A stretch of DNA of 57,084 nucleotides from a virus. The notes under the pieces are model-generated. The model was not told the origin of the DNA. It saw only the letters and a program-made list of their open reading frames with translations, and made no database searches. Below are positions 5,076 through 45,865 of this stretch, piece after piece. Location of the stretch: the IMG/VR virus record IMGVR_UViG_3300032240_001400, positions 1 through 57,084 of that record. One strand, written 5' to 3'. Numbering within the stretch: the stretch's first letter is position 1; every line of letters begins with the position of its first letter. Made by a program: the position numbers and the translations under genes.

Positions 5076-5762
5076 ATGAACGATTTTAACATTGCAAAGT
5101 ATTTAAAAGAGCACAATCTTGGCGCTCATGGAATTTTAGGTAATTATATAGACCTTCAAGCTCTTAAAGAAGCTTCAGATGATGATCTTTGGAAAGGCGC
5201 TAAAATGGATAATCAAAAAGTTCCTTATGAAGGACCAGATACTAAACTCGATGGTGATAGCCTTGAGTTTGATCAAGTTGATCCTGTTTGCGAATTAGAA
5301 AAACCTGATCAGATCTACACTAATGATTGGATGAATGACAGTATCGATGGTAAAAAAGTTGGTAACTGGACTTGCTACTTTGAAGACTTTCAAAACCTTA
5401 TATACTGGATTAACGACTATATTAATTCTGAGGATGCGGTTGTTTACGCAACTCCAGGTTGGGATAATGTTAATGGTATTGCCTGCGAAACTTCAATTGA
5501 GCATGGAGAAGCATCTATAGATCATGAAACTATAGGAGACAGTTCTTATCCTGATTTTGAATCTTATGCTCAAGATGTTAAACCTTATCTTGATAAAGTA
5601 GAACAAAAGTATCTTGGTGAATCAGAAGTAGCAGAAGGCATAGATGATATTGATGTAAATGAATATGATCAACTTGTTGGAGCTATAGAATCTTTGTTAC
5701 AACAAGGAGAATCAGAAGCAGATATCTTACAAGTAGTAAAAGATACTTTAGGTCTTAGATAA
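5076..5762 (+). CDS. Hypothetical acidic protein with virion-type leader (228 aa)
   Basis: The N-terminus MNDFNIAKYLKEHNLG matches a leader pattern (FN..KYL.E.NL) also seen at 5780 and 34548, which in related marine phages is common among structural or internal proteins. The rest is acidic and soluble, with an aromatic-rich centre (residues 85-125) and a helical C-terminus after an 'SEVAEGID' segment at about 188-196. It has a late-type motif upstream and is followed 17 bases later by another gene with the same leader type. No domain is recognised; a virion-associated role is an inference. Confidence 0.6.
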   Translation: MNDFNIAKYLKEHNLGAHGILGNYIDLQALKEASDDDLWKGAKMDNQKVPYEGPDTKLDGDSLEFDQVDPVCELEKPDQIYTNDWMNDSIDGKKVGNWTCYFEDFQNLIYWINDYINSEDAVVYATPGWDNVNGIACETSIEHGEASIDHETIGDSSYPDFESYAQDVKPYLDKVEQKYLGESEVAEGIDDIDVNEYDQLVGAIESLLQQGESEADILQVVKDTLGLR

Positions 5763-5779
5763 TAAAAAAAATAATAATA

Positions 5780-6211
5780 ATGTCATTTAATTATAAACAA
5801 TATACTGCAAACAATCCTCTTCTACAAGAAGTGGATGAAGAAGTAACAGTAAGTTCTTCTGGTGTAGAAATGGAAGAAGGGTCTAATTATCCTAGAGTTG
5901 CTCTTGAACAGGCCGCATTAGAGGCTAAAGAAGCAGGTGTAGATAGAGAGGAAGCTGTTACCATTGTCAACCAAGCTTATGGCGCTGGTATGTCTTCAGA
6001 TAGCTTGAATGAAGAGGTAGATATATGGCAAATGGCAGGAGATCATCTTGAAAACTTTAGAGACGAATTGTCAAGTGCTTATGCTATAGCAAGTCAGAAT
6101 GGCCTTAAAGATTGGATGATGGCTCTAAATAAAATAGTAATACATCTAGATGCACTTGAAGGTGCCATCGCAGAAGCTAATGCTAAATTAGGAGTACTTC
6201 CTACAAATTAA
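5780..6211 (+). CDS. Hypothetical acidic helical protein (143 aa)
   Basis: This 143-residue acidic protein starts MSFNYKQYTANNPLLQEVDE, a variant of the leader seen in 5076-5762 (FN..KY...N.L). LQE near residue 16 resembles a prohead-protease site (L-x-E). The remainder is helical, with QAALEAKEAG and DALEGAIAEANAKLG segments. It is the last gene before a strong terminator at 6237, so 5076 and 5780 form a two-gene late unit. Function unknown; probably a head-internal or structural protein. Confidence 0.55.
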   Translation: MSFNYKQYTANNPLLQEVDEEVTVSSSGVEMEEGSNYPRVALEQAALEAKEAGVDREEAVTIVNQAYGAGMSSDSLNEEVDIWQMAGDHLENFRDELSSAYAIASQNGLKDWMMALNKIVIHLDALEGAIAEANAKLGVLPTN

Positions 6212-25445: not shown

Positions 25446-26236
25446 TTGAACAAAATAAGAACATCCATAGAGATAAATTCTTAAAGCGAATAGTAGAAAC
25501 AGATCCTGAACTTAGACAAATTACATTACATGATTCTAGATACTATCAAAGATCGCCTGGTATTTTTTACCCATCTGTTACAACAATCCTGGGTTATTTT
25601 CCGAAAGGTTCTTTTTTCGAGACCTGGCTTAAAGATATGGGGCATAATGCTGATATTGTTATGCGTCGTGCTGGTGATGAAGGAACTCAAGTCCACAACG
25701 CCATTGAAAAATTCTTACGAGGAGAGGAGATACGGTGGATCGAATCAGACGGGAAAGTAAACTATCATACACATGTATGGAAAATGATACTTGCTTTTAC
25801 TGACTTCTGGACCACATATAAACCTACCTTGTTATTATCGGAAGAGTTTATGTACTCGGATACTCACAAATATTCTGGTACACTTGACCTCTTAGTAGAA
25901 CTTAATGGAGAGAGGTGGATCTTAGATATTAAAACTTCTAATAATATCCATGAAAGTTATTACCTTCAGATGGCAGCTTACACAAAAGCGTATGAGGAAA
26001 AGTATCTTCAAAAGGTAGATCGTAATGGTATTATCTGGCTAAAGTCTTCTAAAAGAGGCCCAGATAAGTCAAATAAAAAGATGCAAGGCGCTGGCTGGGA
26101 GATCCTTGAAGGCAAAAAAACTCTAGATGAATATTTCCAAATGTTCTTACACACCTACGAAACATATAAAATTATACATCCAGAAACAGATATTGAACTT
26201 TTGACTCTTCCTAACACGGTTAAACTTGATAATTAA
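25442..26236 (+). CDS. RecB/Cas4-like PD-(D/E)XK nuclease
   Basis: All motifs of the RecB-type PD-(D/E)XK fold are present: His85 in 'GTQVHNAIEKF', Glu134/135 in 'LLLSEEFMY', Asp149 in 'SGTLDLLVE', Asp162-Ile-Lys164 in 'RWILDIKTS', and the 'YYLQMAAYTKAYEE' helix with Gln176/Tyr180. In T4-like phages such exonucleases act in recombination, repair or host DNA breakdown. It is translationally coupled to the primase, which supports a replication/recombination role. No iron-sulphur Cys cluster is visible, unlike Cas4/AddB types. Confidence 0.85.
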   Translation: MIEQNKNIHRDKFLKRIVETDPELRQITLHDSRYYQRSPGIFYPSVTTILGYFPKGSFFETWLKDMGHNADIVMRRAGDEGTQVHNAIEKFLRGEEIRWIESDGKVNYHTHVWKMILAFTDFWTTYKPTLLLSEEFMYSDTHKYSGTLDLLVELNGERWILDIKTSNNIHESYYLQMAAYTKAYEEKYLQKVDRNGIIWLKSSKRGPDKSNKKMQGAGWEILEGKKTLDEYFQMFLHTYETYKIIHPETDIELLTLPNTVKLDN

Positions 26237-26244
26237 TATTTATT
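26236..26244 (+). promoter_or_regulatory. Late-type motif before the zeta-like kinase gene
   Basis: ATATTTATT overlaps the nuclease stop region and ends six bases before the ATG at 26251. It separates the replication pair (24516-26236) from the LxE-tagged cluster that follows. Confidence 0.5.
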
Positions 26245-26250
26245 GGTAGT

Positions 26251-27036
26251 ATGATTAAGCTACTAGATTTGTTAAATGAAATAAAGGGCCAACCAAAAGC
26301 CATTATTATGGCTGGTGGAGCTGGTGCAGGTAAGTCAACCTTTGCTAATCAGATAAAGTCTGATATTAAAAAAGCAGGCTGGGAAGAACTTAATGCCGAT
26401 AAATACGTAGAAGACCAAGATAGTCCTATGTATAATAATCTAGGCAAAGCATCTAGCCAGATAGAGAAGGTCGATCTTCCTAATGCTATCAATTCTGGCA
26501 AAAGCTTTATTTATGATACTACAGGAACTAATGTTCAAAGAGTTCAAAATATAGTAGACTCAGGATATGATCCTATGATGGTCATGGTATATACTAATCC
26601 TATTGTTAGCTTTATGCGTAACTTCAAACGTGAAAGAAAAGTACCAACTGTAGGAGTTTTAACAAGTTGGAATAACGTTTATAAGAATATAGAGGCATAC
26701 AAAAGTATGTTTGGAAACAACTTCTATCTTGTTCAGTCAGACATGTCTCCTGAAGAAAATAAGATGGTTAATAAATTTGAAAAGGCTTATAAATCTGGTA
26801 AATTAAAAGAGTTCTTTGAAGATCTTCTTTCATCTGGCCAGTTTAAATCTACATTCAGAAAAGAGCCAGGAAAAGAAAAAACTCCTGAAGAATTAGCCAA
26901 ATCTAAAGCATTAGTAGATAAGCAGATAGATATACTTTCAGATCAGTTTGATAATATAGAAAATCAAGTAGAACAGTTAAAGAGTTCTAATATGAACCAA
27001 GTTGTGACTAAAGCTAAATCATTTATAAAGTCATGA
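26251..27036 (+). CDS. Zeta-toxin/PNK-like P-loop kinase with capsid-targeting-type leader
   Basis: This P-loop kinase has Walker A GGAGAGKS at 22-29, a 'LNADKYVE' Asp as in zeta-type kinases, 'SFIYDTTGTNVQR' and an Arg-rich lid (FMRNFKRERKVP). Zeta-like enzymes phosphorylate UDP-sugars; relatives act on polynucleotides or small molecules. The first 11 residues, MIKLLDLLNE|I, form a short amphipathic helix ending L-N-E, the pattern of T4 capsid-targeting sequences cut by gp21. The C-terminus (195-261) is a helical extension. It overlaps the next gene by ATGA. Substrate unknown. Confidence 0.75.
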   Translation: MIKLLDLLNEIKGQPKAIIMAGGAGAGKSTFANQIKSDIKKAGWEELNADKYVEDQDSPMYNNLGKASSQIEKVDLPNAINSGKSFIYDTTGTNVQRVQNIVDSGYDPMMVMVYTNPIVSFMRNFKRERKVPTVGVLTSWNNVYKNIEAYKSMFGNNFYLVQSDMSPEENKMVNKFEKAYKSGKLKEFFEDLLSSGQFKSTFRKEPGKEKTPEELAKSKALVDKQIDILSDQFDNIENQVEQLKSSNMNQVVTKAKSFIKS

Positions 27037-27623
27037 TTAATATAGAACACATAACAAACGAAATCGTAAGAGATATATTGAATGAAGCATCTCCGGATGT
27101 TGGACCTTGCTTTTATCCTGGTAAATTTAAACCTCCTCATAAAGGACATTTTGCAGCAGCACAATACCTCGCATCTCAAAATTATATAAACAGAGTATAT
27201 GTTATTATTTCTAACGTTACTAAGTATGGGATTACTCCTCAAGACTCTCTATACATTTGGCAACAGTATCTCAATGCAGAACCGAATCCTAAAATTAGTG
27301 TATCAATTTCTCAAGAATCCACTCCTATAAAAGACATTTTTTCTTTCATAGCAGAGAATCCAGATGTTGACCCAATCTATGTTGCAGCAGCTCAAGAAGA
27401 AGTAGAAGGTGAAGGATATTTCAATAATATGCAAAAAAGGTTTCCTGGTAAAATAAGACCGGTTACAATACCAGATCAGTTTGGTAGAATATCTGCAACT
27501 CAAATGAGAGATACAATAAAGACAGGAGACTTTGAAAAGTTTTCAAATTTTATACCTGATGCTGCATATAATAAAGGAGCTGCTAAAGATATATTTGGAA
27601 GGCTATTGAAAATAATGAAATGA
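27033..27623 (+). CDS. NMNAT-like nucleotidyltransferase with LxE leader
   Basis: The catalytic signature of the nucleotidyltransferase (HxGH) superfamily is clear: 'GKFKPPHKGHF' at 30-40, and the second nucleotide-binding motif 'ISATQMR' at 153-159 (ISSTxxR class). Members include NMN adenylyltransferase, pantetheine-phosphate adenylyltransferase and cytidylyltransferases. The 196-residue size fits the NMNAT/archaeal NadM type. Residues 1-18 end in DILNE|AS, a good prohead-protease site. Coupled by ATGA to the kinase before and the fusion gene after. Which nucleotide it makes is not decided by the sequence; NAD synthesis is the leading guess. Confidence 0.78.
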   Translation: MINIEHITNEIVRDILNEASPDVGPCFYPGKFKPPHKGHFAAAQYLASQNYINRVYVIISNVTKYGITPQDSLYIWQQYLNAEPNPKISVSISQESTPIKDIFSFIAENPDVDPIYVAAAQEEVEGEGYFNNMQKRFPGKIRPVTIPDQFGRISATQMRDTIKTGDFEKFSNFIPDAAYNKGAAKDIFGRLLKIMK

Positions 27624-28900
27624 AAGATAAATTAAGAGACGAAATAATTCAAGACTTCATAGAATTCTGTAAAGACAATTTAGGAATAGACACTCTTCCT
27701 GATATAAACTTTATAGAAGATAAAGCTTGGGTACTTGAAAGACACAGTTTTGGAGAGTACGATCCTAATAAAAAGTCTTTAGACGTTTATATTGGGAATA
27801 GAAATCTTGCTGATATATTAAGAACATTAGGTCATGAACTTGTTCATCACAAACAAAATGAGTTAGGTAGACTTAAAGTTAATTCTGGAAAGACAGGATC
27901 TAATATTGAAAATGAAGCTAATGCTAAAGCTGGAATATTAATGAGAGCTTATGGTAATGTAAATGAGTTGATATATGAAGCATTTACGCCAACTCTAACT
28001 CAGATATATGAAGCTGAGAATTCAAATGGACTTCAAATTTATTGTGACATGGATGGAGTTCTTTGTGACTTTGATTCAAGATTTGAACATTTTTATGGAG
28101 TACTTCCAAGAGAGTATTATGGAGAGAAAGGTTCAAAAGCATTTGAAGAGGCTGTAAATAAAGCTGGTATTGACTTCTGGTCCAAAATGAATTGGATGCC
28201 TGGAGGTCAAGAACTCTGGTCTATTATAGGTAAATATAAACCATATATTCTAACCAGTCCTAGCAAGTTTGAATTTGCAAAGGAAGGCAAGAAACAGTGG
28301 ATTCAAAAGCACCTTAATCCTCAGCCTAAAAAGATTTTATTTGCTCAGACTGGAGATAAACATTCTATGATGACTGCTGATCCAAAAAATTCTATGTTAA
28401 TAGATGACTATTGGCCAAACCTCGCTCCATGGAAAGCATTAGGTGGTATAGCGATAATGCATAAAGATATAGATAAAACTAAAGATATATTAAGTAAATT
28501 CAGAATAAATGAGATTAGTTATCCTTCTTCAAAACATGACGTTATTCGTGATGAGGAGGATAATAGTCTGATAACTGTTGAGTATACTTTTAAAACAAAA
28601 GAAAATAAGTATAGAGTTGAAATATCTTCAATGGAAAAGGCTGGAGATTTTGAAGTGTCATTTGGTTTAGATACAAGAGGTTTTCATAAAATAGATACAT
28701 TTCAAATGACTGGTGAAGGAGATGCTAAAAACATTCTTGAGACAGTATCTAATATAATTAATAAGTTTTATTACGATTATAAAAAAGACATAAATAAGAT
28801 TATAATTAAAGGAACATCTGAAAAAAGAAGTAGGGTGTATAAACAACTTCTACCTAAGTATATAGATCCAGAAGTATTAAAAAAGATTGAAATAGAATAA
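27620..28900 (+). CDS. Three-part fusion: HExxH metallopeptidase-like, HAD 5'-nucleotidase, C-terminal domain
   Basis: Residues 1-115: a small metallopeptidase-like domain with 'LGHELVHHKQNELG' (HELVH at 72-76) and a downstream Glu helix (NIENEANAKAG) as possible third ligand. Residues 138-295: a HAD domain of the NT5C/5'-deoxyribonucleotidase type, with 'YCDMDGVLCDFD' (Asp143, Asp145), 'ILTSPSK' and 'MLIDDYWPNLAPW'. Residues 310-426: a domain with 'FQMTGEGDAKNILETVSNII' seen in other phage internal proteins. Between parts one and two lie LIYE|A (120) and QIYE|A (131), two prohead-protease-type sites that could separate the enzymes. Substrates are inferred. Confidence 0.72.
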   Translation: MKDKLRDEIIQDFIEFCKDNLGIDTLPDINFIEDKAWVLERHSFGEYDPNKKSLDVYIGNRNLADILRTLGHELVHHKQNELGRLKVNSGKTGSNIENEANAKAGILMRAYGNVNELIYEAFTPTLTQIYEAENSNGLQIYCDMDGVLCDFDSRFEHFYGVLPREYYGEKGSKAFEEAVNKAGIDFWSKMNWMPGGQELWSIIGKYKPYILTSPSKFEFAKEGKKQWIQKHLNPQPKKILFAQTGDKHSMMTADPKNSMLIDDYWPNLAPWKALGGIAIMHKDIDKTKDILSKFRINEISYPSSKHDVIRDEEDNSLITVEYTFKTKENKYRVEISSMEKAGDFEVSFGLDTRGFHKIDTFQMTGEGDAKNILETVSNIINKFYYDYKKDINKIIIKGTSEKRSRVYKQLLPKYIDPEVLKKIEIE

Positions 28901-28904
28901 TGTT

Positions 28905-29483
28905 ATGATACCTAAAGAGTCTACGTTAAAAAAAGAATTCAAGAAAAGTGATGTACAAAGAATGAGAAACCTTATTACCGGTAAATCTGGTGATAAGACT
29001 CAAGTTTTAGGAGGATACGAAAAAACGCAAGAAGTACATAAAGAAGGAGACACCTGGGAAGAGGATGGAAAAAAATGGACCATTAGAAATGGGATAAAGC
29101 AGTCTATTACAAAGTTAGATAAGTTCAAAAAGATCCTTCATTTTCCTTTATGCTGTCCTAAATGTACAAAGCCTATGAAGGCTAATGAAGTGAATAAGAA
29201 GATCTACTCTATTCATGGAATGTGTCTTGACTGCTCTATAGAAATGGAAAGTAAACTTAAGCTAGAAGGGAAGTATGAGGAATATGAAAGAAATATCATA
29301 AATAATAATAAGAACGCTAGCCTTGAAGAGTTTGAAAGGGCTCTTGAATCTTGGTTGGTTGAAAAAGATACCTTCGTATCTGAAGATGGCGATATAGAAA
29401 ACTGGTCTGGTGGAGACAAGACTAAGATCTATGAAGAATTAAAAAGTAAGATAGAGGAACTAAAGAATACAGATATTTATTAG
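28905..29483 (+). CDS. Conserved zinc-binding phage protein (192 aa)
   Basis: The N-terminus 'MRNLITGKSGDKTQVLGGYE' and 'EGDTWEEDGKKWTIRNGIKQ' match a family widely found in large T4-like phages, of unknown function. Residues 82-112 hold two Cys pairs, 'CCPKC' and 'GMCLDC', likely a zinc ribbon. The C-terminal 70 residues are acidic and helical. It sits in the LxE-tagged cluster but lacks a clear leader itself. DNA- or RNA-binding is possible from the zinc site. Confidence 0.65.
   Translation: MIPKESTLKKEFKKSDVQRMRNLITGKSGDKTQVLGGYEKTQEVHKEGDTWEEDGKKWTIRNGIKQSITKLDKFKKILHFPLCCPKCTKPMKANEVNKKIYSIHGMCLDCSIEMESKLKLEGKYEEYERNIINNNKNASLEEFERALESWLVEKDTFVSEDGDIENWSGGDKTKIYEELKSKIEELKNTDIY
29473..29481 (+). 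promoter_or_regulatory. Late-type motif before 29498
   Basis: ATATTTATT overlaps the 3' end of the zinc-protein gene and ends 16 bases before the ATG at 29498, followed by AGTAAATTTATATAGT. Confidence 0.5.
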
Positions 29484-29497
29484 TAAATTTATATAGT

Positions 29498-30367
29498 ATG
29501 CCAGCAAAATCAGAAAAAGAAGCAGTTGCCGCCAGAATTGCAGGAGCCATAAAAAAAGGACTCCAAAAACCAAAACCTGGTACTGCATCAGCTCAAATGG
29601 CAAAAATGCCTATGAAAACCTTAAAAAAATTCCAACACGTAAAAGGAGAAAAGAAGGTAAAAAAAGAAGCTATCGATGGAGCAATTGATACTCTATATAT
29701 GGTTAAAAAGCCGTATGCAGGATGTACTCTTACTTCATTAGTTGAACCAATTGATCCTTTGGTAGGTTTAGAAGGAAGTAAAATAGTTCCAGATCAAGTA
29801 CATGGAGTATTCCCAGATCAAGATATGGCAACTCAAGTAGCTGCTGGACTTTATGAAGAATATTGTGCTAAAGAAGAAATGTTAGAAGAGAAGAAAGGAA
29901 AGGTTGGAGATAGGATTAAAAAGACTATCGACCATCTAGAAAAGAAGAGAAAGGAGCATATTGATATGGCTAAAGAGGATCCTAAAAACGCTTATCAACA
30001 TAAAGAACGTATTGTTAAAATAGCCCATCAGATTGATGATCTTATGTCTAAATTAGAAAAGATAGAAAAGTCTAAGAAAGAAATTAAGAAAGACGAAAAA
30101 AAGAATCTTAAAGAAGCTTTCGAAGTTCACTTTTCAGATGGAGTGAGACAAGCTAAAAAGTTTAAAGATCCAAAATCAGCGCTTAATTTTGCTAAGCAAT
30201 TAATAAGCACAAATAAAAATCTACAAAATGTAGATGTTTTTAAAGCTGGACCAAATTTTCATTCAACTGCAGATACTGATTCAGTAATTGCTTGGTGGGG
30301 AGACGGTTCATACATGGATAATAAATCAAAAAAAGATGCTAAATTAGCAGCTAAAAAAATAAAATAA
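29498..30367 (+). CDS. Lys-rich internal-type protein (289 aa)
   Basis: A basic N-terminus (residues 1-56, many Lys, e.g. FQHVKGEKKVKKEA) is followed by a compact segment (58-125, 'MVKKPYAGCTLTSLVEPIDP'), a long charged helical rod (130-200), and a C-terminal domain (207-289) with 'VHFSDGVRQAKKFKDPKSAL'. The junction reads NLKE206|AF, a prohead-protease-type site that would release the last 83 residues. Composition and site suggest a capsid-internal protein. No enzymatic motif is seen. It ends with ATAATGG, overlapping the next start. Confidence 0.6.
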   Translation: MPAKSEKEAVAARIAGAIKKGLQKPKPGTASAQMAKMPMKTLKKFQHVKGEKKVKKEAIDGAIDTLYMVKKPYAGCTLTSLVEPIDPLVGLEGSKIVPDQVHGVFPDQDMATQVAAGLYEEYCAKEEMLEEKKGKVGDRIKKTIDHLEKKRKEHIDMAKEDPKNAYQHKERIVKIAHQIDDLMSKLEKIEKSKKEIKKDEKKNLKEAFEVHFSDGVRQAKKFKDPKSALNFAKQLISTNKNLQNVDVFKAGPNFHSTADTDSVIAWWGDGSYMDNKSKKDAKLAAKKIK

Positions 30368-30729
30368 TGGAACCATACGCACTATTTATTGGAACTTTAT
30401 TTCAATCTAGAAATCAAGCTCATATTTATCACTTGCAAACTAATTCTTTCGCAGTTCATAAAGCTCTACAAGAGTATTATGAAGAGATCGTTGAATTAGT
30501 TGATGGTCTAGTTGAATCATATCAAGGCAGGTATGGCATTCTTCGTGGATATAAAATGGAAAATGCTATTAAAGAAGACGATAATCCTGTAATGTACTTT
30601 GATGCGCTATCTAAATTTGTAGAGGTAATAAGAACAAAAGTTCCTCAAGATTCATATATCCAGAATGAGATTGACAATGTAGTTGGTCTTATTGAATCAA
30701 CAAAATATAAGCTTAAATTTTTACATTAA
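30367..30729 (+). CDS. Dps/ferritin-like helical protein (120 aa)
   Basis: The product is all-helical with 'LFIGTLFQSRNQAHIYHLQT' and 'FAVHKALQEYYEEIVELVDG'. The conserved His and Glu positions resemble the ferritin/Dps-like four-helix family found in large phages. I cannot confirm a complete di-iron site from sequence alone: His27, His31/32 and several Glu are candidates. Dps-like proteins bind DNA or scavenge iron. Its place among tagged internal proteins fits packaging with DNA, but it has no leader of its own. One-base overlaps couple it to both neighbours. Confidence 0.6.
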   Translation: MEPYALFIGTLFQSRNQAHIYHLQTNSFAVHKALQEYYEEIVELVDGLVESYQGRYGILRGYKMENAIKEDDNPVMYFDALSKFVEVIRTKVPQDSYIQNEIDNVVGLIESTKYKLKFLH

Positions 30730-31058
30730 TGTACGAATTAAACGAAGGTGAATTTTGTCCTCAATGCCTAGCAGACTATATAAAAGAATGCTGGGACAAA
30801 CCTTTAGAGGAAGCTGAATATCACGGAAGAAAAGTAACTCTAGGTAAACCTTTCTTAACTCCAGATGGTCCTAAAAAGAGATCTGTATATGTTAAGAACG
30901 CTAAAGGAAACGTGGTTAAAGTAAACTTTGGACAAAAAGGAGTAGCAATAAAAAAACGTTTTCCTAATCATAGAAAGAGTTACAGGGCTAGACATCATTG
31001 TGACACTAATCCTGGACCTAAATGGAAAGCAAACTATTGGAGTTGTAGAGCATGGTAA
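30729..31058 (+). CDS. Conserved phage protein of the RARHxCD/PGPKWKA family (109 aa)
   Basis: Residues 29-109 form a compact conserved module: 'GKPFLTPDGPKKRSVYVKN' then 'NVVKVNFGQKG', 'KSYRARHHCD' and 'PGPKWKANYWSCRAW'. This is a family common in large marine phages, with conserved His/Cys that may bind metal. Residues 1-28 contain CPQC and end PLEE|A, a probable prohead-protease cut that would release the module. The biochemical function is unknown. The start overlaps the previous stop by one base. Confidence 0.65.
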   Translation: MYELNEGEFCPQCLADYIKECWDKPLEEAEYHGRKVTLGKPFLTPDGPKKRSVYVKNAKGNVVKVNFGQKGVAIKKRFPNHRKSYRARHHCDTNPGPKWKANYWSCRAW

Positions 31059-31687
31059 AAGATAAAGAAATAGTGTGTAAGAATTGTGGATGGCATTGGA
31101 AGTTATCTGATGGAGGAAAAGATCCATATACTTGTCATAAATGCGGATATAATAATAAAGAAATGATAAAGCTTAAAGACATATTAAAAGAATTGGCTAA
31201 ATCTGATATTCATTACCAGAATATACTTCAATCTTTTAATGACGGAGATGCTAATACTAGAGATGAAATATCTAAACTAGTTTCTGGAAAGCCATATACT
31301 TTAGAAGATGATTTAGAAAGTATGGGTTATGAAGATGCCAAAGAAATAGAAATGGAGTTAGATCTTAATCCTTTAGAAGAATCATGCTGGGATGGATATC
31401 AACAGAAAGGTATGAAAAAGAAAGGGAATAAGATGGTTCCTAATTGTGTTAGAGTAAGTGAAGCAAAAAAGAAAAGTAAAATAAATCCTGCTTATCTTAC
31501 AAAAGATGCAGCGGCAATGAAGAAAGAGATCAATAGAGTTAAAAAGTTAAAATCTGATGATCCTTCTGCATACGGTAAATGGGAAGCGGATTATGCTGAC
31601 AAAGATAAGACTAAGAAATATAAGACAAAGAAAAGCGCAGCAACATCAGCATACGAAAAAAGATTCGGAAAGAAAGATGATAAATAA
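31052..31687 (+). CDS. Zinc-ribbon protein with internal capsid-targeting-like segment (211 aa)
   Basis: Residues 1-36 are a zinc ribbon (CKNCGW ... CHKCGY). Residues 38-48, MIKLKDILKE|L, look exactly like the N-terminal leaders of neighbouring tagged proteins, so the ribbon may be fused in front of a targeting peptide. Next come a helical region, 'PLEESCWDGYQQKGMKKKGN' with 'VPNCVRV', a widespread phage motif, and a Lys-rich C-terminal module (160-211). Several L-x-E sites would allow processing. A DNA-binding or internal role is inferred. Confidence 0.62.
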   Translation: MVKDKEIVCKNCGWHWKLSDGGKDPYTCHKCGYNNKEMIKLKDILKELAKSDIHYQNILQSFNDGDANTRDEISKLVSGKPYTLEDDLESMGYEDAKEIEMELDLNPLEESCWDGYQQKGMKKKGNKMVPNCVRVSEAKKKSKINPAYLTKDAAAMKKEINRVKKLKSDDPSAYGKWEADYADKDKTKKYKTKKSAATSAYEKRFGKKDDK

Positions 31688-31964
31688 ATTAGACATATTA
31701 AAAAAAATACTTATTCTTGAGTACGATGCTGAAGTAGAAAAAGCGTTAGCAAATAAAGCTAAGTCTACTGGAATATCTAAGTCAATACTCAAAAGTGTTT
31801 ATGCTAAAGGATTAGCTGCTTGGAAAACAGGTCACCGTCCTGGAGTTGGTCAACACCAATGGGGAATGGGTAGAGTTAATTCATTTGTTACTGGTAAAGG
31901 TGGAGCTAGAAAAGTAGATAAAAAGTTGTGGAAGAGAGCAAGTAAATCTAAAAAGAAAAAATAA
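31677..31964 (+). CDS. Basic DUF5824-like protein with LxE leader (95 aa)
   Basis: The start is placed at the ATG at 31677, overlapping the previous gene by 11 bases. The frame opens further upstream at 31557, but that part lies in another gene. The leader MINKLDILKKILILE|Y is a short helix ending I-L-E. The rest, 'ISKSILKSVYAKGLAAWKTG', 'HRPGVGQHQWGMGRVNSFV' and a Lys-rich tail, matches a small conserved phage/virus domain I know as DUF5824-like. The basic tail suggests nucleic-acid binding. Function unknown. Confidence 0.65.
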   Translation: MINKLDILKKILILEYDAEVEKALANKAKSTGISKSILKSVYAKGLAAWKTGHRPGVGQHQWGMGRVNSFVTGKGGARKVDKKLWKRASKSKKKK

Positions 31965-31965
31965 A

Positions 31966-32613
31966 ATGAATAAATTATCGTTCTTTAAAGCGCTTCTTGA
32001 AATGGATGAAGCTTCATTTACTAAGAAGTATAATGATAATCCTAAATTAAAAGGTGGACAAAAAAATCTTCCTGACGAACTTCAAGCGCAAATAGTTAAA
32101 GAAGAAGGTCAAGATCACGAAGTTTCTATGGCACAAAGTAGTCTTAAATCTATTGTAAGTGCTGCTAGTAAATTAATGGCTTTGATAGGTCAAGATGAAA
32201 AAGATATTCCAGCCTGGATTCAAGATCATATTACAAATGCTGCTAACTATATAAACCAAGCTGCTGATAACTATCACGAATATAATGAAGGTCAAGGTGA
32301 ACATGATATGGATGAACTTCCTAATGGAACAATTGAACAACCAGCAGGTGATGAAGAAGATGTAGTAATGTCTCTTAGATCAATGATGGAAGATCTTTTT
32401 GAAGCTAAAAAGAAAAAGCCTTCTGCTGGACTTACTAAAAAACAAAAATCTGCTATAGTTAAAAAAGCTAAAGCTGGTAAAGATGTTGGTAAGAAAGGAA
32501 AAGGATTCGAGAAAGTAGCCGCTAAAGCTGCAAAAGAATACGGTTCAAAAGAAAGAGGTCAAAAAGTAGCGGCAGCAGCAATGTGGAAAGCCGCAGCAAA
32601 AAAAGCAAAATAA
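31966..32613 (+). CDS. Internal-type protein: acidic helical part plus histone-like Lys/Ala tail (215 aa)
   Basis: The leader MNKLSFFKALLEMDE|A is followed by a helical segment with 'DHEVSMAQSSLKSIVSAASK' and 'PAWIQDHITNAANYINQAAD', a pattern common in internal proteins of marine T4-like phages. An acidic stretch follows, then DLFE146|A and a C-terminal 69 residues rich in Lys and Ala (KKAKAGKDVGKKGKGFEKVA onward) that look histone-like. Cleavage after 146 would free the basic DNA-binding tail inside the capsid. It lies one base after the DUF5824-like gene. Confidence 0.62.
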   Translation: MNKLSFFKALLEMDEASFTKKYNDNPKLKGGQKNLPDELQAQIVKEEGQDHEVSMAQSSLKSIVSAASKLMALIGQDEKDIPAWIQDHITNAANYINQAADNYHEYNEGQGEHDMDELPNGTIEQPAGDEEDVVMSLRSMMEDLFEAKKKKPSAGLTKKQKSAIVKKAKAGKDVGKKGKGFEKVAAKAAKEYGSKERGQKVAAAAMWKAAAKKAK

Positions 32614-32616
32614 ATA

Positions 32617-34221
32617 ATGCCAGTGAGTAATCATGACATATTAAAGAATATACTCTTACAAGAGTTAGATAGGATGGAGCCTGAAACTTCTACTTTTGAA
32701 GATGATCCTATGCAATTTATATTGACAAAGTATGAGGGTCTTAGAAGTACTCTTGAGTATCTAATGACTCCATCATTTATTGAATATACAACTGGAATAT
32801 ATGTAGTAGCACCTAAACCAACTACATTTAAAGTTGTACTTCATAATGGACAATTCTTTTTCTTGCAATTCATGGGCAAAGCTTATGAAGCAACTGTTCA
32901 AGGAAAGAAATACTATTTGATGTCAATAGGTGAAAAAGAAAGGTGCATGGTTGCTATATCTAGGCTTCTTAGGTTTGGTAATCCTTTAAAAACCCAAGGT
33001 CCTGAAGGAGCTGAACAAGGAACAAGAGATCAAGAAGGTCCAGCAGAAGAAGCCGGACCAACACCAGAATCTGAAGGAGGTGCTGGAGGAACAGAGGAGT
33101 TAAAAGAGTCTAAGATATTAGAAAGTATTTTAAAAGCTAGTTTGTATGAAGCTCCTTTATCAAAATCAGCAATTCATAAAGAATTGGTTAGTAGATTAAT
33201 TTATTTACACCCTGATAAATTTGAAGCTCAAAGTGATCCTGGAAGGATAGCTAATAAAACTAAAATGGATGCTAAAGAATTTGAATCTATATTAAAAAAA
33301 GATTTAAAAGCAAAAAATATAAAGGTCATACCTCCAAAAACTCTTCCAAATCTGAGTTCTAAATTTAATATGTTCCAATTTGATAGCACAATGGGACCTG
33401 CATCTATAGTATTAAGTGGAGGAGCAGGAGCAAATCAAGGAAGCAAATTTGAAAAAGATTTAGTTGGCAGAATAAAAGCAGTCGCTGGATTAGATAAGAG
33501 TGAAATTAAAGATAAAGTTGTATTGAAAATATTAGATGCTTTAAATATAGATCCTAAAGATTTAAAGGAAGAAGATGTAATTGCAGCTGGTGAAACTGAT
33601 ACAAAAAGACCATTAAGTTTTAAAGGCCCACAAAATAGAGGAGAAAAAATATCTGATATAATTATAAATTATAATGGAAAACCTTATTATTTATCAATAA
33701 AAAATGTCAGTGGATCTGGTATATATAATGGTGGGATTGTTCCAGGAATAACGTATAATAAAGATAAAACAAAAATAGTATTTAACGAAGATCTTTTTAT
33801 TTCAAATGAAACTATTAAAAAAATATTTGAAATATTTGGAGCAGATCCTAAAAAAGTAGTTCGAGGATTAAATAACTATATTAATCAAACAGGAAGCGAC
33901 ACTAAATTTGAAGCAACAGACGGAAATTTATCTAAAATAAGTAAGTTACTAGGATCTGCTATAGATTATGGATATTATTATATAAGAGAAACTACTGGAG
34001 GAGACGTAAAAATATATAATATAGATTCTCCTGAAAAAGTTATGGAACTTTTAGGTACTCCAACTGGAACTTTCGTTAAATACCCAAGTAAATCTACAAA
34101 AATTACTACTTTTAGAGTTCCATTAGAAAATTCTCAACTAGGCTTAAAAAGAACGGATGTTAGTGTAAGAAATGCAACTGGAGGAATAGATAAACCTGTA
34201 TTAAAAATTAATTTGTTTTAA
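32617..34221 (+). CDS. Multi-domain internal-type protein with PD-(D/E)XK-like C-terminal half (534 aa)
   Basis: The leader MPVSNHDILKNILLQE|L ends L-Q-E. Residues 30-125 are a small alpha/beta domain ('FKVVLHNGQFFFLQFMGKAY'). A low-complexity Gly/Glu/Pro linker (126-160) follows, then 'ILKASLYE178|AP', another cleavage-type site. The C-terminal half includes 'GSKFEKDLVGRIKAV' and 'ISDIIINYNGKPYYLSIKNV': an acidic residue, a strand, then S-I-K, compatible with a divergent PD-(D/E)XK nuclease core in which the usual Glu is replaced by Ser. Nuclease activity is a hypothesis. This is the last gene of the tagged cluster. Confidence 0.55.
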   Translation: MPVSNHDILKNILLQELDRMEPETSTFEDDPMQFILTKYEGLRSTLEYLMTPSFIEYTTGIYVVAPKPTTFKVVLHNGQFFFLQFMGKAYEATVQGKKYYLMSIGEKERCMVAISRLLRFGNPLKTQGPEGAEQGTRDQEGPAEEAGPTPESEGGAGGTEELKESKILESILKASLYEAPLSKSAIHKELVSRLIYLHPDKFEAQSDPGRIANKTKMDAKEFESILKKDLKAKNIKVIPPKTLPNLSSKFNMFQFDSTMGPASIVLSGGAGANQGSKFEKDLVGRIKAVAGLDKSEIKDKVVLKILDALNIDPKDLKEEDVIAAGETDTKRPLSFKGPQNRGEKISDIIINYNGKPYYLSIKNVSGSGIYNGGIVPGITYNKDKTKIVFNEDLFISNETIKKIFEIFGADPKKVVRGLNNYINQTGSDTKFEATDGNLSKISKLLGSAIDYGYYYIRETTGGDVKIYNIDSPEKVMELLGTPTGTFVKYPSKSTKITTFRVPLENSQLGLKRTDVSVRNATGGIDKPVLKINLF

Positions 34222-34251
34222 AATAAATTTTTTTATATCAATTATTTTTTT

Positions 34252-34260
34252 TATATTAGT
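34252..34260 (+). promoter_or_regulatory. Candidate early-type promoter before 34275
   Basis: TATATTAGT after a T-rich stretch, identical over nine bases to the box at the primase start; it ends 14 bases before the ATG at 34275. It suggests the small gene is not part of the late cluster around it. Confidence 0.45.
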
Positions 34261-34274
34261 ACCAAATTAAGTTT

Positions 34275-34523: not shown

Positions 34524-34532
34524 ATATTTATA
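34524..34532 (+). promoter_or_regulatory. Late-type motif variant before 34548
   Basis: ATATTTATA directly after the stop of the 82-residue gene, 15 bases before the ATG at 34548; likely opens the transcript that includes the spanin-like and terminase genes. Confidence 0.45.
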
Positions 34533-34547
34533 AGTAAATGGACCAAT

Positions 34548-34901
34548 ATGTCATTTAACTTACAAAAGTATTTAACCGAGAATAATCTCACTATAATCTC
34601 TAAGATTAGAGAGGATATTAGTGAAGAAGATCAAGAGCCTACAAAAGATGATCTCAAATCTGATGAAAAAAGCTTTAGAGGAATAGATAAAAAGAAAAAA
34701 GAATACGCTTCTCTACAAGCTCAAATGAAAGCAATTTTATCAAAGCATGCAGTAAGAAAACCAGACGGCACCTTAACAGTAAAAGATGTAGCTGGATATA
34801 AATCAGAAGTTGGAAATATTCCAGATAGATTAAAGCTCCTTAAAAAACAAATTGATCAAGTAGAAAACCCAAAATTAGATTCAGATGAAGAAGGTAATTA
34901 G
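34548..34901 (+). CDS. Charged helical protein with virion-type leader (117 aa)
   Basis: The start MSFNLQKYLTENNLTIISKI has the same leader pattern (FN..KYL.E.NL) as 5076 and 5780. The rest is highly charged and helical, probably a coiled coil between residues 48 and 112. Its 3' end overlaps the spanin-like gene by 17 bases in another frame. It is located just before the lysis/packaging genes. A head-internal role is possible, based on the leader only. Confidence 0.5.
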   Translation: MSFNLQKYLTENNLTIISKIREDISEEDQEPTKDDLKSDEKSFRGIDKKKKEYASLQAQMKAILSKHAVRKPDGTLTVKDVAGYKSEVGNIPDRLKLLKKQIDQVENPKLDSDEEGN

Positions 34902-40690: not shown

Positions 40691-41875
40691 ATGACAACAG
40701 CTAAACTATATCAGAAACACAAGGCAGGAGAAGTAAGCCGTGACCGCTTTTTATACGAAGTTAGACGTGATTCTAATCTTCCTTGGGTAACCAACATTAC
40801 ATCTTATACAGATGCTGTAAAGATACTTAAGAACAAAGGAATAATCAGCGAAGCAGATAATAATATTAAAGCTATTCCAGAAGTAGATAGGGTAAATCCA
40901 TACTTCTTAAAAAGAGGAGTAAATAAGCTTCTTGACAAAGAAGAAGAATTAGACAATCAATCTTATATTAAAGCTTTGAATAAAGCAGCTAAACAACTAT
41001 CTAAAAATCCTAAAGCATTTGACAAAGATATGTTTGCTGATGCTGAAGATGTAGAAAAAGAAGATAAAAAACTTGATCGTCAAGAAGTTAAAAAGAACAA
41101 CTTTGTCGATAAGAATAACGGGATGAAGAAAGTTAAAGTTAAATCTTTAAAAGAGGCGGTTTTAAAAGAACTTACTGATTCTTTAAAAAAAAAAGAGTCA
41201 ATTAACGAAGACTCACACTGGAACTATAATCTAGGTTCAGAAGTACACACTCCACAAGGCCCAGGTAAAGTAAAAGAAATTATAGGAAGTACTCTTACAG
41301 TAGAAATGCCAGATGGTAGTTTAGCAGACTATCAAATTAACACTATTGATCATCATACAGAAAAGGCTAATTCAAATACAGTTGATGAAGTGGATATGCC
41401 GTTTGCAAATGCTGCTTTGAAGCCTGAATATAAAATGAATAAAGACGGTCAAAGAGCAATTAGTCCTTCTGGTATAGAATTTAAAGTCGGTGATAAAGCC
41501 ATTGCTACAGATACAGGTGAAGAAATTCAAATCAAGAATTTTAAAATACAACAAGGAATAATTAGGGCAGGTTATTTTGATGGCATGGGTTATAACTATG
41601 TTGATATTGATGCTCTTGAAAAACCTAAATCTACTAATCCATGGGATAGTTTTAAAGGTAAAATGATTCCTGAAACTATTAAAAAGTTTATGGAAAAATA
41701 TAAGGATGATGACAAAAAGATGAGAGGGTTAAAAGAGGTTGTAAAAAGATTAAAAGAAGCAACTAAGTTTCATGCAGGAGGAGAAGTTATTTTTACAAAA
41801 GATTCTGATGCTATGGGATATGAAGCAGATTTAAAAAGAGCAGGTGTAAAATATACAAAAGAAAAAGTACAATAA
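40691..41875 (+). CDS. Large prohead-internal protein (394 aa)
   Basis: The N-terminus 'LYQKHKAGEVSRDRFLYEVR' is a conserved feature in this neighbourhood in related phages. The middle has L-x-E|A type sites (IISE54|A; SLKE|AV near 155; RLKE|AT near 358) and a small beta domain, 'LGSEVHTPQGPGKVKEIIG' (about 182-215), that looks SH3/KOW-like. The overall Lys/Glu/Asp-rich composition fits an internal core protein processed by the protease encoded next. Coupled to gp21 by a one-base overlap. Confidence 0.6.
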   Translation: MTTAKLYQKHKAGEVSRDRFLYEVRRDSNLPWVTNITSYTDAVKILKNKGIISEADNNIKAIPEVDRVNPYFLKRGVNKLLDKEEELDNQSYIKALNKAAKQLSKNPKAFDKDMFADAEDVEKEDKKLDRQEVKKNNFVDKNNGMKKVKVKSLKEAVLKELTDSLKKKESINEDSHWNYNLGSEVHTPQGPGKVKEIIGSTLTVEMPDGSLADYQINTIDHHTEKANSNTVDEVDMPFANAALKPEYKMNKDGQRAISPSGIEFKVGDKAIATDTGEEIQIKNFKIQQGIIRAGYFDGMGYNYVDIDALEKPKSTNPWDSFKGKMIPETIKKFMEKYKDDDKKMRGLKEVVKRLKEATKFHAGGEVIFTKDSDAMGYEADLKRAGVKYTKEKVQ

Positions 41876-42501
41876 TGTCTAAACAACTCTTAATAGAATA
41901 TCAGGCTTTCCAACCTCTTCCTCAATCTTTAAAAGAAGGAAGAAGACTTCCAAATGGAAATATGGTAGTGTCAGGTTTAGTGCAAGCTACTGATAAACCT
42001 AATGCTAATAAAAGAATCTATCCATATGTTACTTTATTTGCACAAGTACAAAATTATATAGCTGGACCTATTTCTGAAAATAGAGCGTTAGGAGAATTAG
42101 ATCATCCTGAATCTTCTGTTATTAATCTTAAGAACGTTAGTCATAATATAGTTAAGCTTTGGTGGGAAGGAAAAGATCTTTATGGAGATGTTGAAATACT
42201 ACCAACTCCATCAGGAAATATATTAAGGCAGTTATTTGAAAATAAAATCACTGTTGGTATTTCATCTAGAGCAATGGGTTCTGTTAGTCCTATAGGTGAA
42301 GGTCTTGTTCAAGTTGAAGATGATCTAGAACTTATTTGTTGGGACTTTGTTTCTACTCCATCTACTTATGGTGCGTATATGAGGCCTATAGGAGGATTGA
42401 ATGAGTCAATTGATTATAGTGTACCAAAAAATGTTAGTAAAGTTAACCAACTCATATCTGAGATCATATGCTCCCAGTCAGGAGTTTGTTGCATAAACTA
42501 A
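41875..42501 (+). CDS. gp21: Prohead protease, gp21-like
   Basis: This 208-residue serine-type prohead protease has 'NANKRIYPY', the catalytic-His region 'GELDHPESSVINLKNVSHNI' (His77, His90) and the catalytic-Ser region 'VGISSRAMGSV' (Ser130/131). T4 gp21 cuts after Glu in L/I-x-E during head maturation, destroying the core and trimming the capsid protein. It is followed by scaffold and capsid genes, as in T4. The C-terminus (CSQSGVCCIN) has three Cys, an unusual tail. Confidence 0.95.
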   Translation: MSKQLLIEYQAFQPLPQSLKEGRRLPNGNMVVSGLVQATDKPNANKRIYPYVTLFAQVQNYIAGPISENRALGELDHPESSVINLKNVSHNIVKLWWEGKDLYGDVEILPTPSGNILRQLFENKITVGISSRAMGSVSPIGEGLVQVEDDLELICWDFVSTPSTYGAYMRPIGGLNESIDYSVPKNVSKVNQLISEIICSQSGVCCIN

Positions 42502-42981: not shown

Positions 42982-44172
42982 ATGAGTAATCTTTATCAAG
43001 ATGCGCTCATCGATGCTAAAGCTTTAAGATCAACTGCCCTAGCTAATGCAAAAGCTGCATTACAAGAAGCTTTCGAACCAAAGATCCAAGAGATGCTAAG
43101 GTTGAAACTTTCTGAAAACCTAGAAGAAGATTCACTTGAAGAAGAAGTAACAGATGATGCAATCACACAAGGACAAGATGCTGTAGATAATGCAGACATC
43201 AATGAAGCTGAGTTGGAAGAAATTCTAGCTGAACTTGAAGAACTTTCTAGCCAAGAAGAAGGCTATGAATTTGAAGAAGACGTGGATCAAACTTTATCTG
43301 AAGCTAAAGAAGATGAAGAAGAAGCTGATGAAGAATCAGAAGAAGAAGTAGATGACGATGTTGAAGACTATGAAGATGCAGAAGAACACAATGTTGATGA
43401 TGACACAAAAGTAATTGATATTACTATTGGTGATCTGAAAGAAGTACTTCGCTCTGTAATGGGAGGTCAACAAGACATGGAAATGTCTTCTGATGAAGAA
43501 CCAACTGATTCTGACATTACTTTAGATGAAATTCTAGCTGAACTTGAAGAAGAATATGACATGGAAGAAGGAGCAGAAGAATTAGGACGCTATAATGCTG
43601 CACTAGTTCAGTCTTCTGATACCCAAGCTGATGCTCAAGGATTTCGTGGAAGAAAAATCTTTGAAAAAAGTAAAGGCGCGTATAGTCAAAAAGTTAGTGC
43701 TAAAGGAGAAAAAGTTGATGCTAGAAATGGCGGAGACGAAAATGATACTCCGTACACTAAAAAAGGTCTTAAGGCAACAGCTGACCAAGTAGACGATGCA
43801 TACTCTAAAAAAGTAGGCAAAGTTCACGAAGAGTTAAATGAAGCTAAAGATACTATCGAAAGTCTTCGTCAAGATCTTCAAGAAGTAAACTTACTTAATG
43901 CTAAGTATCTTTACATGAATAAGTTATTTAAGTCTAAGAATTTGAATGAGTCTCAAAAAGTTAAAGTTGTTAAAGCTCTTGATCGTGCTACTAACGTAGT
44001 TGAGGTTAAGAATACCTACGAAACTTTAAAAGAATCATTTGAAGCTAAGACGCAACTCAAAGAATCATATGGTTTCGCTTCACAAGCAGCCGGTATAGCT
44101 CCTAAACAACCTATTATCGAGTCGGATAATATTATGTCAAGGTGGCAAAAACTTGCTGGTATAAAAAAATAA
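42982..44172 (+). CDS. gp22: Prohead core scaffold protein, gp22-like
   Basis: This 396-residue protein is very acidic in the middle (residues 55-190 have many Glu/Asp runs), helical at both ends, and has a C-terminal 'IMSRWQKLAGIKK' peptide typical of gp22-type scaffolds that contact the capsid protein. The long coiled-coil segment (275-345) fits a core rod. The scaffold builds the prohead core and is degraded by gp21 before packaging. It is larger than T4 gp22 (269). The capsid gene follows after an A-rich 22-base gap. Confidence 0.85.
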   Translation: MSNLYQDALIDAKALRSTALANAKAALQEAFEPKIQEMLRLKLSENLEEDSLEEEVTDDAITQGQDAVDNADINEAELEEILAELEELSSQEEGYEFEEDVDQTLSEAKEDEEEADEESEEEVDDDVEDYEDAEEHNVDDDTKVIDITIGDLKEVLRSVMGGQQDMEMSSDEEPTDSDITLDEILAELEEEYDMEEGAEELGRYNAALVQSSDTQADAQGFRGRKIFEKSKGAYSQKVSAKGEKVDARNGGDENDTPYTKKGLKATADQVDDAYSKKVGKVHEELNEAKDTIESLRQDLQEVNLLNAKYLYMNKLFKSKNLNESQKVKVVKALDRATNVVEVKNTYETLKESFEAKTQLKESYGFASQAAGIAPKQPIIESDNIMSRWQKLAGIKK

Positions 44173-44194: not shown

Positions 44195-45865
44195 ATGGCA
44201 AATTTAGTACAATCTTTATTGACTGAATCCGCTAAAACGGCTTTCTCTGATCAACATGGTGTTGCTCAGCGTCTTGCTAATAAGTGGGGTAAGTCTGGCC
44301 TTTTGGAAGGCCTTCAAGATTACGACGCAAATAACATGTCGGTAATTCTTGAGAACCAAGCTAAACAGCTTGTAGTTGAATCTTCTTCTACTAATGGTAA
44401 TGCTAACTCTGGTGGTGCAACCTTTACTCCTGGTACTGGTGAGCAGTGGGCTGGTGTAGCTCTTCCATTGGTTCGTAAGATCTTTGGTCAAATCGCATCT
44501 AAAGAGTTTGTTAGTGTACAGCCGATGAATCTTCCTGCTGGTTTGGTGTTCTATTTGGATTTCCAATATGGTAATACAAAAGCTCCATTCACTTCTGGTG
44601 ATTCTATCTATGGTACTCCAACAGCTAACTTTGGTAATGCCGCGGCTGGTGGTCTTTATGGAGCTGGTCGTTTTGGTTTCTCTTTGAACCAATTCTCAGC
44701 TTCTATCTTAGGTAATGCAACAGGATTTCTTTCATCTTCTGCAACATGGTATGATTTAGATTATGATGCAAACTATTCTGCTTCTGTAATTGCTAACCAA
44801 ATTGGTAAATTGCAAATCCCAACTTCATCATTGCCTTCTTACAATCCTGATGGTGTTCGTGCATTTACAATTGCTACAGGTTCTACATTTGTAGCTTCTG
44901 ATAACTTGCAACAATTTACTAACGTATCTTCAAGTGTAGCTGGTGTTTTTGTTAACTTCTTTGTTAATAAAGGATTCTCAGGTAGTGCATCATCACTATA
45001 TGTAATCAACTATAATAAGCTTACAGACTTTAACACACGTGGTGATTTTGAAGATCGCACAGGTAACCCTTCAGTTCCAAACAGTCTTTCTAATACTTCT
45101 ATCGTTATCCCTGAGATCAACGTACAAATGAAGAGCCAAACCATTTCTGCTAAAACTCGTAAGTTGAAAGCACAATGGACTCCAGAATTTGCACAAGATC
45201 TTAACGCCTACCACTCTCTTGACGCTGAAGCTGAATTGACAGGTCTACTTTCTGAGCACATCTCTTTGGAGATTGATTTGGAAGTTCTTGACATGTTGAT
45301 CAGCAACGCTCCAACTATTGAGTACTGGTCAGCTAAAGTTGGTCAGCAAATCGGCGTAACTCCTACTTCTGGATTTACTTCTAACACTGCTGGTGTTTAT
45401 TACACTCAAATGAGTTGGTTCCAAACTTTGGGTATCAAACTTCAAAAAGTATCTAACATCATTCATCAAAGAACTCTCCGTGGTGGTGCAAACTTCATGG
45501 TAGTTTCTCCAACTGTAGCTACTATCTTGGAATCAATCCCAGGATTTGCTGCTGATACTGATGGTGCAGCTGATACAATGAAGTATGCTTTTGGTGTACA
45601 AAAAATTGGCCAATTGAATAGCCGTTATAAAGTTTATAAGAATCCTTACATGACTGAGAACGCAATACTTCTTGGTTTCCGTGGTAATCAGTTCTTAGAG
45701 TGCGGTGCGGTTTATTCTCCATACGTTCCATTGATCATGACTCCACTTGTGTACGATCCAAATACCTTCACTCCAAGAAAAGGTATCATGACTCGTTACG
45801 CAATGACTATGGTACGTCCTGAATTTTATGGTTTGGTATTGGTAGCTGATACTAACGTTATCTAA
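44195..45865 (+). CDS. gp23: Major capsid protein, gp23-like
   Basis: This 556-residue protein has a gp23-type N-terminal propeptide (MANLVQSLLTESAKTAFSDQ, about 62 residues) ending LVVE62|SSS, a good prohead-protease site close to the T4 cut at residue 65. The HK97-like fold follows, with 'PLVRKIFGQIASKEFVSVQP', 'KSQTISAKTRKLKAQWTPEF', 'LSEHISLEIDLEVL', 'GGANFMVVSPTVATILES' and 'TPRKGIMTRYAM'. It forms the hexamers of the shell. Codon use is more G+C-rich than neighbours, as expected for the most abundant protein. Two hairpins follow the stop. Confidence 0.97.
   Translation: MANLVQSLLTESAKTAFSDQHGVAQRLANKWGKSGLLEGLQDYDANNMSVILENQAKQLVVESSSTNGNANSGGATFTPGTGEQWAGVALPLVRKIFGQIASKEFVSVQPMNLPAGLVFYLDFQYGNTKAPFTSGDSIYGTPTANFGNAAAGGLYGAGRFGFSLNQFSASILGNATGFLSSSATWYDLDYDANYSASVIANQIGKLQIPTSSLPSYNPDGVRAFTIATGSTFVASDNLQQFTNVSSSVAGVFVNFFVNKGFSGSASSLYVINYNKLTDFNTRGDFEDRTGNPSVPNSLSNTSIVIPEINVQMKSQTISAKTRKLKAQWTPEFAQDLNAYHSLDAEAELTGLLSEHISLEIDLEVLDMLISNAPTIEYWSAKVGQQIGVTPTSGFTSNTAGVYYTQMSWFQTLGIKLQKVSNIIHQRTLRGGANFMVVSPTVATILESIPGFAADTDGAADTMKYAFGVQKIGQLNSRYKVYKNPYMTENAILLGFRGNQFLECGAVYSPYVPLIMTPLVYDPNTFTPRKGIMTRYAMTMVRPEFYGLVLVADTNVI

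Follow-up and report, generated by a model that had tools for sequence, protein, structure and literature searches.

We analysed a 57-kb virus fragment from IMG/VR (IMGVR_UViG_3300032240_001400; the window below means all of its 57,084 nucleotides), in which a cluster of genes at 26251-34901 sits between primase/exonuclease and terminase genes. Five cluster proteins start with a short hydrophobic leader holding the site [LI]xE, and others hold such sites between domains. The enrichment of these leaders in the cluster is far above chance. The cluster is very likely an internal-protein (cargo) cassette of the T4 type, with enzymatic and modular cargo that is cut by an S77 protease and ejected. 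Because the cluster proteins bear removable tags like the head-loading tags of T4, the window phage probably injects a ready-made enzyme kit with its DNA. The original prediction had proposed such a packaged enzyme set, cut by a gp21-like protease; the leader controls and the virion-detected, leader-bearing relatives described below support it, and packaging and cutting in the window phage itself are what we infer from them.

The fragment encodes TerL, portal, S77 protease, scaffold, a gp23-type capsid protein and tail genes; the phage belongs to the T4 superfamily. The nearest cultured relative found was Flavobacterium phage immuto (NC_055915), which has the gene order of the window: primase, exonuclease, a block of odd genes, TerL, portal, protease, scaffold and capsid. 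In a megablast search of the window DNA against phages, immuto was aligned at the major capsid protein (MCP) gene only. Since immuto is the nearest cultured relative and has the matching gene order, the host is probably a member of Bacteroidota.

Leaders and sites in the cluster

All five leaders quoted in the original prediction are present in the sequence. Genes below are on the + strand unless noted, and a slash marks a predicted cut. The first cargo gene (26251..27036) codes for a P-loop protein resembling zeta toxins and bacterial polynucleotide kinases (PNK), with the leader MIKLLDLLNE and a predicted cut after Glu10 (nt 26280). The NMNAT/cytidylyltransferase-like protein (27033..27623; GKFKPPHKGH motif; phrog_395/3041/3462) starts with MINIEHITNEIVRDILNE/A, which ends in DILNE18/A (nt 27086). 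The DUF5824 protein (PF19141, 8.5e-17) has the leader MINKLDILKKILILE/Y, with the cut after Glu15 (nt 31721). Its gene was corrected to 31677..31964, as the open reading frame listed from 31557 is too long; a 95-residue ortholog in the relative G005, MINNLDILKQLLLLE, agrees with this start. An internal-type protein with a Lys/Ala-rich C-terminus (31966..32613) carries MNKLSFFKALLE/MDE/A, with the first cut after Glu12, and a two-module protein of 534 residues (32617..34221) carries MPVSNHDILKNILLQE/L, which ends in ILLQE16.

The internal sites were likewise confirmed. A fusion protein at 27620..28900 joins a HExxH peptidase-like module (residues 1-120), an NT5C nucleotidase-like HAD domain (~139-300) and a DUF6934 domain (profile matches phrog_2643, 7e-27, and PF22028), and it holds LIYE120/A (nt 27979) and QIYE131/A (nt 28012). 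The Lys-rich protein at 29498..30367 is without an N-terminal leader and has an internal LKE/A site; the phrog_7595 protein (30729..31058) has PLEE28/A (nt 30812) immediately ahead of its conserved domain. In the protein at 31052..31687, a zinc ribbon is followed by an internal leader, MIKLKDILKE47/L (31163-31192), and then by a C-terminal module. A standalone protein of G005 (at 23107) starts exactly at the counterpart of this leader.

Leader frequency was compared with shuffled controls. The broad motif, defined as [LIVMFY][LI]xE within the first 25 residues, was found in 6 of the 13 cluster proteins of the window against 0.9 expected by shuffling, and 0 of 2000 shuffles reached 6. Elsewhere in the window it was found in 4/13 head and 2/26 tail proteins, the tail count being at chance level. 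The corresponding counts in immuto were 7/14 for the cluster (1.16 expected) and 5/9 for the head. Leaders were not equally common in early genes: 14 of the 147 early proteins of immuto had the motif with 14.25 expected, again chance level, and the pooled genomes agree. For pooling, four long relatives (162-181 kb) were joined with the window and immuto to give six related T4-like genomes, leaving out G009 as a member of a different clade. The broad motif occurred there in 41/104 cluster, 22/54 head and 109/996 remaining proteins (p=2.7e-12 and 6e-8). Motif rules B and P2 were picked after some leaders had been seen.

In the leader of T4 IPIII, positions 4 and 7 serve targeting, and positions 8 and 10 serve processing (PMC9026906). 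From this published mutational rule we took a strict geometry, R10, with hydrophobic residues at 4, 7 and 8 and Glu at 10. It was found in 15/104 cluster, 0/54 head and 6/996 other proteins of the pooled genomes (p=5.5e-12), so that a few leaders do occur outside the cluster. The kinase leader of the window is in the exact register of this geometry, as are those of 14 other cluster proteins in relatives, while the remaining leaders of the window extend to 12-18 residues and close with the same motif. Many unrelated proteins in one genome are headed by M(I)KLxD(I/L)LxE: several in L029, five in G006, and five in G008, where nearly identical leaders are, for example, MIKLLDILKE/A (NT5C), MIKLIDLLEE/Q, MIKLINILKE/E, MIKLRDILKE/V and MIKLGTILYE/V (kinase).

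The proteins might instead be ordinary enzymes, late or of auxiliary metabolism, with N-termini that resemble leaders by chance or through start-codon or AT-content bias; detection of their relatives in virions would then be contamination. The window genome is AT-rich (33% GC), and MIK or MKK starts are common. However, the early genes of the same genomes are at chance level, and M(I)KLxD(I/L)LxE at non-N-terminal positions is near zero. Chance or start-site bias as the origin of the leaders was rejected on the early-gene and shuffle controls.

In the kinase leader, M1, I2, K3, L4, L7 and E10 are invariant in 14 orthologs, down to 35% identity; the junction (positions 11-15) is variable, and the catalytic core that follows is conserved, the leader as strongly as the core. 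In the structure model, the leader forms its own low-confidence helix ahead of the kinase fold. The protein matches PF06414 (1.3e-10), and Foldseek on the model gave zeta toxin and bacterial PNK with partial TM scores of 0.4-0.6; its activity is predicted by family. The distant kinase of Pelagibacter phage HTVC008M has MIPFILKE/G ahead of the P-loop, and the kinase domain of Agrobacterium phage Atu_ph07 (L035) lies inside a larger protein, behind a VTE/G junction. The same phage has seven consecutive genes of similar size (~760-800 nt) followed by two large proteins, one of which joins a VYRGMK- or IYRGMK-type N-terminal domain to the kinase domain.

Relatives in cyanophage virions

Members of the same families (cytidylyltransferase, DUF5824, phrog_7595, NT5C and kinase) are found again in Kyanoviridae, in an equivalent cluster next to primase/helicase genes. 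The related cytidylyl/NMN-adenylyltransferase was found by mass spectrometry (MS) in purified virions of S-SM1 (PMC3037559), S-SZBM1 (PMC9146016), S-SCSM1 (PMC9602691) and S-CREM2 (PMC10665884). All four detected transferases have a leader: MKKFSAFLNE/A, MRFRQFIIE/A, MKSFLQFLKE/A and MKNFSSFLTE/A, respectively. Other non-structural proteins detected in S-CREM2 have leaders as well, namely a SAM hydrolase (MKDFDSFLE/E), an APH-like kinase ((M/V)KRFDAFLTE/E) and ORF13 (MKDLHSFLTE/Q). The strict leader was present on 4/49 detected and 0/134 undetected S-CREM2 proteins (p=0.005, an optimistic value, as R10 was run after several S-CREM2 leaders had been seen). Two further proteins of the window are linked to virion proteins by similarity or synteny: the zinc-ribbon protein resembles S-SZBM1_139, reported as an MS-detected virion protein (1e-8), and the protein at 29498 is syntenic with G005:26567, a homolog of S-SCSM1_93 (3.2e-18), itself annotated as a virion protein.

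These data also bear on contamination. The authors on S-CREM2 and S-SCSM1 left open whether the virion NMNAT and kinases of cyanophages are packaged or co-purified (PMC10665884, PMC9602691). On the other side, the enzyme was reported from four separately purified cyanophages, and strict leaders in S-CREM2 are on detected proteins only. We regard the explanation by chance matches and contamination as very improbable.

For S-CREM2, broad motifs were rejected as a means of predicting which proteins are in virions; only the strict 10-residue register separated detected from undetected proteins. A Cas9-like nuclease of S-CREM2 virions (ORF12, L222:7704-10313) has LRFASFMAE/A, a leader ending at residue 25, and would possibly be injected too.

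Several observations weigh against a packaged and cut enzyme cassette. The virion evidence comes from relatives of the window phage, and these relatives are distant: the NMNAT-like protein of G008 matched that of S-SM1 at 5.9e-6, and that of the window gave no direct match, nor did the window protein at 29498. Besides the co-purification left open for S-CREM2, no peptides starting after a predicted Glu were seen in the accessible parts of the published data. Under looser leader definitions, detected and undetected S-CREM2 proteins were not distinguished (p=0.10 loose, 0.16 broad), thus one LxE close to the start is a poor predictor. Within the cluster, the proteins at 28905, 30367 (DUF5856) and 34275 are without a leader; they may either not be packaged or enter by DNA binding. 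Relatives of the cargo domains can be leaderless as well (NT5C in L104/L105, NMNAT-like in L028/L030). Finally, a baseplate-region protein (17991-18434, - strand), conserved in G005-G008 and immuto, has repeated LIREE-type amphipathic helices at its N-terminus, which resemble the leaders yet are probably distinct from them.

Modular cargo and a proposed mechanism

The fused proteins of the cluster are related to separate ones. In tblastn, some relatives of the 27620 fusion matched the whole peptidase-NT5C part and many matched only from residue 1 to ~120-131, where the two sites lie. Among 26 non-redundant peptidase modules, 16 were fused to NT5C, and nearly all were directly followed by a site. 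In other clades the module stands alone, either with an N-terminal leader (MKKFREYLKE/Q) or followed by a leader-like element. Immuto, L029, L047 and G008 encode NT5C as a separate, leader-bearing protein; DUF5824 is fused in HTVC008M and standalone in C48C1 with the leader MITFKKYLEE/. Thus, NT5C, DUF5824 and peptidase modules either bear a leader as separate proteins or, when fused, have a site in the linker. Leader-like C-terminal elements are SLKLGNILKE/IKRK in the peptidases of L108, L112 and L118 and RTFKEFLE/YIE at the end of S-SCSM1_93 (L226:6627-6836), whose sequences suggest C-terminal targeting peptides.

The 534-residue protein has a similar arrangement. After its N module (31-119) comes a disordered linker, in which a second helix resembles a leader (LKE164, ILE169, SLYE178), and then a variable C-terminal domain. 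Homology of the N module mostly stops at 173-207, beside these sites at 164-178, and relatives keep the N module and the linker ELTE/SRILEAILKE/A, after which several different C-terminal domains follow. In the AlphaFold model, of low overall confidence, the N-terminal helix is detached and the linker, with the second helix at the predicted sites, is disordered. The protein had been described as nuclease-like, a label (PD-(D/E)XK or other) that we dropped: there was no Pfam match, and a fold search with the low-confidence model gave no match below E 0.001.

This arrangement also bears on a second explanation, that the leaders are uncut helices docking to the scaffold or another structure, the enzymes then working inside the producing cell or remaining in the particle. 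In its favour, the helix is amphipathic and conserved, RxQKLAGI is shared by some leaders and the C-terminus of the scaffold, and the functions are separable in T4, where Asp at leader position 10 blocks processing and not packaging (PMC9026906). However, docking alone needs no xE at the domain boundaries and linkers where the sites are placed, Glu10 is invariant in the kinase orthologs, and an S77 protease is encoded together with an MCP prosequence that has the same sites. Uncut docking is an unlikely account of the leaders.

As a third explanation, the cluster proteins could be structural core or DNA-condensing proteins that keep catalytic folds as scaffolds, in line with several small, Lys-rich members (29498, 31966) that are like the internal proteins of T4. 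The P-loop, HExxH, PPHxGH and CDMDGV motifs, which a structural role would not need, are retained across diverged relatives, and we give this explanation little credence. The NMNAT-like and NT5C-like (phrog_2643) proteins are identified by family. For the former, leader and domain are conserved in relatives, profile matches are weak, and no match was found among PDB sequences; more than 550 phage records encode a relative. Taken by family and motif, a nucleotide/NAD/RNA-end theme appears visible among the cluster enzymes.

Under the favoured cargo cassette, the proteins would be made late, together with the head genes, and an amphipathic capsid-targeting peptide on each cargo protein or domain would dock to the prohead scaffold core. 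The S77 protease would then cut after [LI]xE and release folded domains within the head: the P-loop kinase, the NMNAT-like nucleotidyltransferase, the peptidase-like module, the NT5C-like phosphatase and small basic proteins. With sites at their start, between their domains and in some cases at their end, the fused genes would encode polyproteins that are separated on maturation. The released cargo would be ejected along with the phage DNA, as in T4, and might act in the next host. Such ejection would let the cargo act ahead of all phage gene expression, as the original prediction proposed. For the window phage, we infer docking, cutting, ejection and this activity.

The pairing of a capsid-targeting sequence (CTS) with gp21 is a principle already described in T4, and reviews anticipated cargo of various kinds (PMC9026906). 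T4 IPI, IPII, IPIII and Alt have N-terminal leaders of 10-19 residues with key positions 4/7/8/10, and as in the window, an S77 protease (gp21), [LI]xE sites and a similar leader on different proteins are combined (PMC9026906). Unlike T4, the window has many enzyme-fold cargoes (kinase, nucleotidyltransferase, phosphatase, peptidase-like), sites also between fused domains, the leader MIKLxDLLxE and probably a Bacteroidota host. The same domains with leaders are found in immuto gp076-gp089, in the order primase-exonuclease-cargo-TerL-portal-protease-scaffold-MCP, whereas NMNAT and peptidase are within one 907-residue protein and NT5C is standalone there. The cyanophage cytidylyltransferase/NMNAT proteins (S-SM1, S-SZBM1, S-SCSM1, S-CREM2), which are virion-detected, belong to a homologous family with CTS-type leaders, and those of S-SM1, S-SZBM1 and S-SCSM1 have the same neighbourhood beside primase/helicase genes; the accessible parts of these papers name no targeting mechanism and report no cargo polyproteins. 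In phiKZ/SPN3US, a gp21-related prohead protease also cuts packaged, ejected proteins after Glu (PMC9026906), but the motif and the protein families are different and there is a large inner body.

In the open literature searched, which was incomplete, no paper linked CTS and gp21 to virion NMNAT or kinases, and neither inter-domain or C-terminal leader sites nor such a system in Bacteroidota phages were described. Looking there for virion proteomics on immuto gave no result. Because the search was incomplete, novelty is a lead and not a proof of priority. Cyanophage virion studies have repeatedly met NMNAT-like and kinase-like enzymes, for which packaging and contamination were indistinguishable; a sequence rule that holds for the detected enzymes, is not found on undetected proteins and reappears in phages of a different host group offers a mechanism and a direct test. 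With it, injected proteins could be predicted from the more than 550 records above, and the cluster supplies natural cases of T4-type head cargo with several domains that a protease separates. As a more tentative proposal, which we think has somewhat less than an even chance, one portable peptide code (hydrophobic at 4/7/8 and Glu at 10; N-terminal, inter-domain or C-terminal) may build protease-separated enzyme cargoes, as injected nucleotide/NAD/RNA-processing kits, across the host groups of T4-superfamily phages (probable Bacteroidota, SAR11, methylotrophs and cyanobacteria). If true, such kits would perhaps weaken host defences or counter NAD depletion from time zero.

Head genes, a promoter-like element and further leaders

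The gp21-like protease named in the original prediction is encoded at 41875..42501 (PF03420, 6.6e-23). Its His/Ser motifs, GELDHPES and GISSR, are conserved, and it has candidate sites of its own, LLIE8 and an LNE near the C-terminus. Between it and the MCP gene lies an acidic scaffold/core protein (42982..44172) with many LxE sites and the C-terminus RWQKLAGIKK. The MCP (44195..45865; gp23 family, PF07068, 2e-75) has the prosequence sites LLTE/S, GLLE/G, VILE/N and LVVE/S, conserved in an alignment of relatives.

A promoter-like element, ATATTTATT, was found 15 nt upstream of the kinase start (26236..26244), and again upstream of 29498 (29473..29481). Its positions in the window are 5045, 26236, 29473, 39092, 40679, 42876 and 45933 on the + strand and 9929, 22007 and 24480 on the - strand. 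It lies no more than 60 nt upstream of seven window genes, including the kinase, 29498, 39124, 40691 and the leader-bearing 5076. In four relatives, it lies within the same distance of head, tail and cargo starts 17, 9, 18 and 8 times, with 1.1, 0.6, 0.7 and 0.5 expected, and antisense occurrences are rare. The element was matched to no known promoter, and T4-style TATAAATA promoters were not informative in the window. ATATTTATT is a putative late promoter common to cargo, head and tail genes; its presence before these genes above expectation suggests late co-expression of cargo and head genes.

Two genes far from the cluster (5076..6211) have the related leaders MNDFNIAKYLKE and MSFNYKQYTANNPLLQE, with similar genes at 64-65 kb in G005, and are possible further cargo. 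A small protein at 34548..34901 has a second leader type, MSFNLQKYLTE/NNL, which resembles the leaders of immuto gp076 and gp077. A small head-region protein (39975-40547) and the MCP have GATFT(P/S)GTGEQ in common soon after a predicted protease site, as is also the case in G005 and G007. An RxQKLAGI-like motif was observed at the scaffold C-terminus and near the N-terminus of small proteins, followed by (T/K/S)E (window 42508 and 42982-44172; immuto gp083 and gp067; G006 64185 and 107176), and it might be a second core-docking peptide.

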